Positions 21,681-43,440 of a DNA stretch of 64,000 nt are shown piece after piece. Position 1 is the first letter of the stretch, and every line of letters starts with the position of its first letter. The notes beneath the pieces are model-generated. The model was not told the origin of the DNA. It saw nothing but the letters and a program-made list of their open reading frames with translations, and searched no databases. The stretch is taken from contig CAIUWA010000015.1 of NCBI GenBank assembly GCA_903902745.1, positions 1 to 64,000 on the forward strand, given 5' to 3'. Made by a program: the position numbers and the translations under genes. Origin of the DNA: an uncultured Opitutia bacterium. GTDB taxonomy: Bacteria > Verrucomicrobiota > Verrucomicrobiia > Opitutales > Opitutaceae.

Positions 21681-21776
21681 AAGAAGGCAGCAGGATGAAG
21701 TAGGAGGGAAGCAGCCAGGGGCCGCGAACCTGCCGGACTTCCTTGTTCTTCCTTCTTACTTCATCCTTCTTTCTTC
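21681..21776. repeat. Hairpin element, 'GAAGAAGGATGAAG' vocabulary
   Basis: The left arm is AAGAAGGCAGCAGGATGAAG and following words; the right arm contains CTTCTTACTTCATCCTTC. It ends 2 bp before the start codon of the next gene, so the RNA hairpin could touch that ribosome-binding site. Confidence 0.75.
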
Positions 21777-35069: not shown

Positions 35070-35079
35070 GGCCCGGAAG

Positions 35080-35277
35080 TGTTTCGCGCAGAGGCGCAGT
35101 GACGCCGAGCGGGAACAACTGGTTTTTCACCCGGAGGCACGGGGGAAAGCGAATTTCGGTTTCGGAAACCAGCGATCCTACTCCGTGCCCTTTGGGTCTC
35201 GGTGTGAAATTACTTCCGGAAGGATTTTCGGAGACCGATGCTTCAGCTTTGCGCCTCGGCGCCTCCGCGCGAAATAA
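35080..35277. repeat. Two nested hairpin elements of different vocabulary
   Basis: The outer arms are GTTTCGCGCAGAGGCGCAGT (from 35080) and GCGCCTCCGCGCGAAATAA (to 35277). Inside, TTTTCACCCGGAGGCACGGG (from about 35124) pairs with CCGTGCCCTTTGGGTCTCGG and GTGTGAAA (to about 35211). One element appears to have inserted in the loop of the other. Confidence 0.7.
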
Positions 35278-35280
35278 TTC

Positions 35281-38187
<2,907 letters not shown>

Positions 38188-38189
38188 GT

Positions 38190-38386
38190 GTTAGGAAAGG
38201 AAGAAGTAAGAAGGATGAATTCAGAAGTAAAGGCATCGGAAGGTTTCACGCAGAGGCGCAGAGAGCGCAGAGGATCGAACCCCAAGGGGATTGTGATCGA
38301 TCTCCGCGGCCTCTGCGCCTCTGCGTGAAACATCATGGCCTGAATTTCCCGCTTCATAATTCTTCCTTCTTACTTCCTCCTCTCCC
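38190..38386. repeat. Nested double hairpin between gcvP and nth
   Basis: The outer arms use the GGAAGAAGTAAGAAGGATGA vocabulary (about 38198-38222) and its complement (about 38356-38378). The inner element, 38243-38331, has 21-bp perfect arms of the CGCAGAGGCG vocabulary (38243-38263 and 38311-38331) and a loop with GATCGAACCCC and GATCGATC. Confidence 0.85.
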
Positions 38387-38391
38387 AATCC

Positions 38392-39030
38392 ATGACCAAG
38401 ACCGAACGCGCCGCGTACGTTGATCGGCGGCTGGCCGAGCTCTATCCGGCGACGCCGGTGCCGCTGGACCACAAGGATCCCTACACGCTGCTGGTCGCGG
38501 TGCTGTTGTCGGCGCAGTGCACGGACAAGCGGGTGAACCTCGTGACCCCGGAGCTATTCGCCCTCGCGGACACGCCGGAAAAAATGACGGGCGTGCCGGT
38601 GGCGGAGATCCAGCGCATCATCCGCCCGTGCGGGCTGTCGCCGCAGAAGGCGAAGGCGATCGCCGGGCTCTCCCACCTCCTGGTCGAGCAGCACGGTGGC
38701 TTGGTGCCGCAAACGTTCGGGGAGTTGGAGGCGCTGCCCGGCGTGGGGCACAAGACGGCGAGCGTGGTGATGGCGCAGGCATTTGGCGTGCCGGCGTTCC
38801 CGGTGGACACGCACATCCACCGCCTGGCGCAGCGCTGGAAGCTTTCGAGTGGCCGCAACGTCGTCGAAACCGAGCGCGACCTAAAAAAACTCTTTCCCGA
38901 GGCGCACTGGAACCAGCTGCACCTGCGGATCATCTTTTACGGCCGCGAGCACTGCACGGCGCGCGGCTGCGACGGCGCGACCTGCGAGATCTGCCGGACA
39001 CTGTCGCCGAAACGGAATAAGGCATCCTGA
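38392..39030 (+). CDS. nth: Endonuclease III
   Basis: A 212-aa HhH-GPD DNA glycosylase/AP lyase that removes oxidised pyrimidines. LLSAQCTDKRVN, the hairpin-helix-hairpin LPGVGHKTASVV with catalytic Lys, and VDTHIHRLAQRW with catalytic Asp are present. The C-terminal iron-sulfur region has four Cys, spaced C-x4-C-x4-C-x2-C (HCTARGCDGATCEIC), rather than the C-x6-C-x2-C-x5-C of E. coli Nth, so the cluster loop is unusual. Transcribed away from gcvP. Confidence 0.93.
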   Translation: MTKTERAAYVDRRLAELYPATPVPLDHKDPYTLLVAVLLSAQCTDKRVNLVTPELFALADTPEKMTGVPVAEIQRIIRPCGLSPQKAKAIAGLSHLLVEQHGGLVPQTFGELEALPGVGHKTASVVMAQAFGVPAFPVDTHIHRLAQRWKLSSGRNVVETERDLKKLFPEAHWNQLHLRIIFYGREHCTARGCDGATCEICRTLSPKRNKAS

Positions 39031-39198: not shown

Positions 39199-39275
39199 GG
39201 ACGCTTAGCTCAGTTGGTTAGAGCACGTGCTTCACACGCACGGGGTCACAGGTTCGAGTCCTGTAGCGTCCACCA
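39199..39275 (+). tRNA. tRNA-Val (anticodon CAC)
   Basis: A 77-nt cloverleaf: acceptor GGACGCT/AGCGTCC, D-arm GCTCAGTTGGTTAGAGC, anticodon stem CGTGC/GCACG with loop TTCACAC (anticodon CAC, reading GUG), and T-arm CAGGTTCGAGTCCTG. The 3' CCA is encoded. Confidence 0.96.
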
Positions 39276-43346: not shown

Positions 43347-43440
43347 TTTTTCACGCGAAGCCGTGAAGTTCGCGAAGCCGGATTGGGTTTGGGTTCGATC
43401 CTAAATAATCTCCGCGACTTTCGCGTCTTCGCGTGAGACC
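43347..43440. repeat. Hairpin element, 'GCGAAG' vocabulary
   Basis: The left arm includes TTTCACGCGAAGCCGTGAAG and the right arm ends CGCGTCTTCGCGTGAGACC. The loop contains GGTTCGATCC. It lies between the convergent coiled-coil and TPR genes. Confidence 0.85.

Follow-up and report, generated by a model that had tools for sequence, protein, structure and literature searches.

Palindromic repeats that lie inside other palindromes, or that serve as landing sites for other elements, have been described in bacteria. REP dimers are found inside longer palindromes in A. variabilis (GTAG-15), T. roseum (GTAG-23) and H. neapolitanus (CGTC-1), REPs being defined in the same paper by a GTAG or CGTC tag, and O. 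terrae, a member of the Verrucomicrobia, is reported there to be highly enriched in GTAG repeats (PMC3733652). The insertion sequences ISRm22, ISPpu9, IS1397 and IS621 target REP palindromes, and the insertion point of ISRm22 is the axis of the palindrome (PMC1525189). REPINs, which consist of two inverted short repeats and a spacer, form hairpins and are believed to be mobilised as single units (PMC3116915), and the MITEs of bacteria include NEMIS, ERIC and Nezha (PMC3733652).

Here we describe a stack of two hairpins in the 204-nt gap between the divergent genes gcvP and nth of an uncultured Opitutaceae bacterium. The window, by which we mean the whole stretch of 64,000 nucleotides that was analysed, belongs to a genome of 3.29 Mb in 52 contigs (hereafter G000). 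Our preferred reading, to which we give a probability of roughly 0.6, is that the locus holds small non-autonomous hairpin repeats stacked in two layers, where a repeat of one family (A) came first and a repeat of another (B) later entered its loop. Since palindromes within palindromes and the insertion of IS elements into REPs have already been reported, the finding varies a known theme. It shares with the REP-in-palindrome cases the presence of a palindromic repeat inside another palindrome; however, in those cases each surrounding consensus palindrome is combined with one REP family, whereas here many unrelated families combine and the inner hairpin varies between sister species at a shared outer one (PMC3733652). 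With the REP-targeting insertion sequences it shares a palindromic repeat as landing site, but the item inserted here is a short hairpin without genes (PMC1525189). Like REPINs (PMC3116915), A and B are inverted repeats with a spacer that form a hairpin; they differ in that their arms, 21-30 nt of imperfect 7- to 8-mers, have no GTAG or CGTC tag on a short stem, and the Y1_Tnp searches of G000 and of the related genome G002 found no cognate RAYT beside A or B or flanked by such repeats. The nearest likeness to bacterial MITEs is that the elements are short, intergenic inverted repeats, too small to hold a gene and present in several copies; no target duplication was seen at the sites inspected, where element borders are not base-exact, and no parent element was found in the 38% of the genome examined. 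The literature searched did not contain the A or B word families, or different inner hairpins at a shared outer one, and a search by the sequence words of six families returned only unrelated papers.

Two hairpins and their families

The flanking genes, gcvP (glycine dehydrogenase, 35281..38187 on the minus strand) and nth (endonuclease III, 38392..39030 on the plus strand), are open reading frames whose NCBIfam scores (TIGR00461, 1463.5 bits, and TIGR01083, 218.2 bits, respectively) exceed the cut-offs. Between them an inverted-repeat scan and a shuffle test place the outer, family-A arms at 38194..38221 (plus strand, GGAAAGGAAGAAGTAAGAAGGATGAATT) and 38358..38385 (minus strand), with 136 nt between the arms, 6 nt from arm to gene on either side, and a looser pairing (80%) that extends over 38182-38227 and 38352-38397. 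The inner, family-B arms lie at 38243..38263 (plus) and 38311..38331 (minus) according to the same scan and are complementary at 21/21 positions, falling to 90% when extended to 30 nt. They enclose a 47-nt loop, 38264..38310, in which fold and scan indicate further weaker pairing at the base. What remains of the outer loop, read directly from the sequence, is 38222..38242 (CAGAAGTAAAGGCATCGGAAG) on the left and 38332..38357 on the right. With the inner element removed, the outer flanks give a local pairing score of 24, compared with a mean of 10.5 and a maximum of 21 in 5000 dinucleotide shuffles and a maximum of 22 from 5000 random window positions. Folded as single-stranded DNA, 38190-38386 reaches -60.3 kcal/mol, against -25.7 +/- 3.3 for shuffles (0/200 as good; z = -10.45), and forms one long hairpin in which the outer stem pairs nearly to the foot of the inner, so that at this site a palindrome lies between the paired arms of an unrelated palindrome. 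A search of Rfam found no match at the site, the sole match in the window being a tRNA at 39199-39272. The preliminary description, which had reported 21-bp perfect inner arms enclosed by outer arms, is thus confirmed for both layers by scan, fold and shuffles, and the outer pairing, which it had proposed to weigh against shuffled controls, beats 5000/5000 of them; its statement that one repeat sits exactly within the other holds for position but not for the outer arms, which are imperfect.

The two families are each found elsewhere in G000 without the other. The arms of B are arrays of an imperfect octamer with the consensus TTTCGCGCAGAGGCGCAGAGGCGCAGAG, starting with TTTCRCGCAGAGG, and the core CGCAGAGGCGCAGAG occurs, with at most one mismatch, at 127 sites in G000, while its reversal is matched at only 1. 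The 1.26 Mb of G000 examined contain 62 B hairpins with 28-nt arms and a median of 38 nt between them. Their arm pairs differ at a mean of 4.76/28 positions, compared with 7.59 when arms are dealt among elements, the lowest of 2000 deals being 6.47, and departures of the left arm from the consensus are matched in the right arm in 169/338 cases (71.6 expected) in G000 and 65/117 (33.7 expected) among the 17 B hairpins of G002. This shows that the two arms of a B hairpin belong together, with subfamilies contributing to the match.

Family A is less distinctive in its wording. Its arms are arrays of imperfect AAGTAAG-like heptamers, and the pattern, with at most one mismatch, has 20 sites in G000 against 13 for its reverse; being of low complexity and rich in purines, the pattern identifies the family poorly by itself, and the family rests on its paired copies and on matching arms in sister species. 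Read by eye, A hairpins with no inner element stand at C14:94682, C14:95566 and window 21692-21767, with loops of 36 to about 80 nt, and among the 20 listed A sites there is one further nest, on C14 at about 85 kb. Arms of A were also often seen by eye at or within about 15 bases of start codons (L061, L063, L066, L069 and L076), where they give the coding strand a pyrimidine-rich leader.

The outer arms might then be no element at all, being instead the pyrimidine-rich leaders of the two genes, which would pair only through divergence. The frequent position of A sequence near start codons and the existence of unpaired A stretches (by eye) are what this would predict, and of 19 A arms in 1.26 Mb of G000, 11 have no pairing partner within 320 nt; A arms nevertheless pair, again by eye, between convergent genes (L071) and between the stop and start of co-directional genes (L076), and we regard the explanation as improbable. 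The window as a whole has 18 called hairpins, against 0, 0, 0, 0 and 1 in five shuffles, and contains at least five further hairpin vocabularies.

The gcvP-nth gap in relatives

We examined 50 loci, namely those of 29 relatives and 21 Opitutales or Verrucomicrobiota loci, of which 35 are distinct gcvP-nth gaps, the remainder being duplicates or having no gcvP or no adjacent nth. No hairpin was called in 28/35, and 22 of these 28 are 105-176 nt long; the other seven contain hairpins of at least five vocabularies. As most gaps are without one, the hairpins at gcvP-nth are lineage-specific additions. In the 35 relatives' gaps no type-A hairpin was called, no intact empty A hairpin was found and a nest is present in one, that of G002.

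A leader motif, GCGCAACCGCGATTT (at most two edits), is present in 22/35 gaps. Upstream of gcvP many Opitutaceae have a conserved stretch of the form GCGCAACCGCGATTT...AATTAAGGATTTGTTTCC (for example relatives L033, L035, L039 and L042), and a search of Rfam with five relatives' loci that hold all or part of the conserved leader returned three tRNAs and nothing else. The leader is missing in G000 (by eye; window 38187-38391) and in a further relative, G001 (by eye), and is retained in shortened form in G002. Judged from this comparison, the G000 stack stands where older DNA is gone, and this loss counts against a simple insertion of A and then B, which does not explain it.

In G002 the gap is occupied by a B hairpin that has a hairpin of a third family, AAAAGGCACAAGATGACACGA, in its loop, and a free-standing relative of this third-family hairpin, similar in its loop, lies nearby; the gcvP-nth gap of KR3_bin-0468 contig CAIKHO010000009.1 is the same as that of G002 contig C9. 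In G001 gcvP is accompanied by a matching A left arm, GGAAGAAGTAAGAAGGAAGCATTAGGAAGTAAAGGC, followed by a different hairpin, GGAACTCAGGAA, and GAAGTAAAGGC, part of the left remainder of the outer loop in G000, is present at the matching place; in this genome (72% complete) no nth was found at E up to 1e-30. With G060 and G017 taken as outgroup, the gcvP tree groups G000 with G002 (support 1.000) and places G001 outside. Family A is thus in G000 and G001 and absent in G002, despite G002 being the sister of G000, a distribution which needs loss by recombination in G002, or two acquisitions. The identity profile of gcvP does not clearly point to recombination at its 5' end, the first 300 columns being 0.83 identical between G000 and G002 and 0.80 between G000 and G001. 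The B copies of G000 and G002 have similar left flanks (TCGGAAGG and TCGGAAAGG), and their vertical identity was considered and rejected, as the subtypes differ.

These data also bear on the reverse order, in which A sequence would have been laid on both sides of an existing B hairpin by outward growth. B-type hairpins at gcvP-nth in both G000 and G002, the latter without A, could suggest this. However, the two B copies are of different subtypes, the first 30 nt of the left arm in G000 recur identically at L081, elsewhere in its own genome (minus strand from 938, by eye), and at both A loci the A sequence is common between species while the inner hairpins differ; we accordingly give this order little credence. 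At gcvP-nth itself the order of events is one that we infer.

Shared outers, empty sites and the frequency of nesting

The clearest sign that an inner layer would be the later one comes from the second A locus, on C14 at about 85 kb (L115 4957-5210), where in G000 A arms surround a CGCGAAGCC hairpin. At this locus G002 has kept the left A arm, with the same end AATTAAGAAGCCGG, beside an imperfect hairpin ATTTACCCCGGACGGATGCGTGC... (by eye, uncalled), and in G001 a called CGCAGAG-type hairpin is flanked by A-like arms, read by eye, that have clearly diverged. An A-like outer thus appears to be common to three species, with inners that are all different.

Comparison of gaps shows, at another place in the genus, an insert within the loop of a hairpin together with its empty counterpart. 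At L119 4800-4963 a short REP-like hairpin, GGGCGGATTA / TAGTCCGCCC, was recognised by eye in G000, its length being below what the scan can call. In the G002 counterpart a TTGAGG...CCTCAA composite of about 137 bp lies inside the loop of the REP-like hairpin; left of the insert the two species match closely, and right of it the gap of G002 differs in length a second time. The TTGAGG element of G002 is itself empty at L274:3289 and filled by a REP-like hairpin at L270:6288. Set side by side, L270:6288-6422 in G002 and L119:4800-4963 in G000 are a three-layer stack and the empty site in its sister, and with the two states of the TTGAGG element in G002 both steps are seen filled and empty.

The window contains a second nest at the downstream end of gcvP (35075..35281), where B-type arms found by the scan surround a CACGGAGG-type hairpin read by eye (about 35125-35209); the matching gap in G002 has a different, CCACGGAT-type sequence. 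A GGCCACGAAAAGGCACGA-type hairpin lies at the same place in G000 (L118:6473-6691) and G002 (L269), so some hairpins are vertically inherited. Certain combinations also recur in these genomes as composites, with AGCCGGAACGATGC around GTAGCAGCC and TAGCAGCC around GTTGTAGCGG, and the gcvP-nth nest might similarly have arrived ready-made as a single composite element. Since B inside A was seen only at gcvP-nth among the stretches inspected at the 20 listed A sites, and the other A nest has a different inner, we consider this very improbable indeed.

To set nesting against chance, hairpins were called in 2.45 Mb from four genomes (G000, 1.26 Mb; G002, 0.89; G060, 0.14; G017, 0.16), with gene borders taken from a purpose-written codon-usage finder rather than a curated caller. 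Among the 391 intergenic hairpins, 25 regions hold at least two, and 19 of these are nested, where 8.9 would be expected from uniform insertion outside arms. Counting two recurrent composites once each gives 17/23 (8.4 expected, simulated P 2e-5) and counting by pairs 19/31 (9.6 expected); taken singly, the genomes show a modest excess (simulated P 0.017, 0.021, 0.09 and 0.09). L089 and L301 were dropped as repeats of counted composites, L275 and L277, which have AGCCGG in common, were both retained, and the L115 nest (outer score 13) and the 35-kb nest of the window (inner below threshold) fall outside the 19. The nest at L092 (outer CCGCGCCGCGGGCC, loop 401) is probably due to chance and was left out of the pairs. 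A second batch, 800 kb of G000 and G002, had 99 hairpins and no co-resident pairs, and the excess therefore comes from the first 1.65 Mb, which was not a random choice, comprising the window, the gcvP-nth contigs of G060 and G017 and G002 contigs named by earlier searches.

Crowding could produce nests without any preference for loops: if insertion occurs anywhere and A spans the gap, the survivors land inside. Single hairpins occupy a median of 48% of their own gap (281 gaps), and because the outer hairpin nearly fills the gap, nesting at gcvP-nth was likely anyway (prior probability p = 0.80), as it was at L094 (0.98) and L284 9512 (0.91). Regions with a low prior of 0.08-0.24 (L270, L286, L089, L301, L275, L290 and L282) are nested too, however, and total nesting exceeds expectation, which makes crowding by itself a rather unlikely account. 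That loops are preferred as insertion targets is likely, not proved.

The preliminary description had left the origin of the nest between insertion into a hairpin loop and growth from one, and had suggested looking in sister species for the same gap with the outer or the inner element by itself. At gcvP-nth no relative showed the outer element by itself, or a plain inner element by itself; the comparison of sisters at other loci and the excess of nesting favour insertion, and growth is unsupported because the words of the two layers are unrelated and inner families also occur free elsewhere.

Whether the same places are used repeatedly can be viewed in 86 orthologous G000/G002 gaps, where a hairpin is present in both species in 16, in G000 only in 9, in G002 only in 14 and in neither in 47 (Fisher P 4.6e-4, with gap length uncontrolled). 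In five or six of the 16 the family is the same and in the rest it is different, reading the arms by eye. Several one-sided gaps look like replacement or a degenerate hairpin rather than clean insertion or gain, and some are misses of the scan, as with the L118 6473 hairpin, which alignment places in both species. It is possible, and we propose it tentatively, that loops in Opitutaceae are general landing sites for many unrelated small hairpins, such that layered stacks would record the order of insertion and addresses would persist while families are exchanged. As a common target motif, GGCATCGG, which adjoins the inner element and lies near several other hairpins, was tried and rejected: in the loops and flanks of 122 G000 hairpins its enrichment is weak (7 occurrences where 2.06 are expected; P 0.005 before correction, for a single 8-mer out of many), and the enriched list for 51 G002 hairpins does not include it.

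A possible route into loops and its meaning

Under the preferred reading, of A first and B later, a family-A hairpin would have come to fill nearly the whole gcvP-nth gap and a family-B hairpin, common in G000, would later have inserted into its loop, leaving outer arms that are still able to pair. Loops may be favoured because extruded hairpins, or hairpins on the lagging strand, would expose single-stranded DNA to the transposing machinery. Y1 (HUH) transposases generally act via single strands, and for that reason such an enzyme would fit insertion into loops. IS608 and ISDra2 are examples that work in this way (PMC6006769). G000 has one Y1_Tnp match, and no hairpin was called in the 3.2-kb locus L281 around it; G002 (97% complete) has no Y1_Tnp match at E up to 0.001, though its sampled stretches have REP-like hairpins and nests. 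An enzyme other than Y1, or one since lost, must therefore be allowed as a possibility. Neither 38243/38331 nor the L119 empty site shows a visible target-site duplication, element borders at both being less than base-exact. Among B-like arms that are otherwise unpaired, one long-range inverted pair within 4 kb was found in the 38% of the genome examined (window 41059/43422), and its second arm sits in a CGCGAAGCC hairpin, 43351-43436.

The few related species compared here suggest that an older hairpin can receive a newer one in its loop, and that layers accumulate in this way. The loss of the conserved stretch upstream of gcvP would be a naturally occurring example of repeats overwriting a promoter region. 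If loops are favoured, families that lack any other clock could be dated relative to one another by their nests, which would also indicate a transposition route guided by DNA structure, as a cruciform or a lagging-strand hairpin. If loops prove to be general landing sites for unrelated families, a common machinery would be implied, with extruded or single-stranded loops rather than a sequence as its target.
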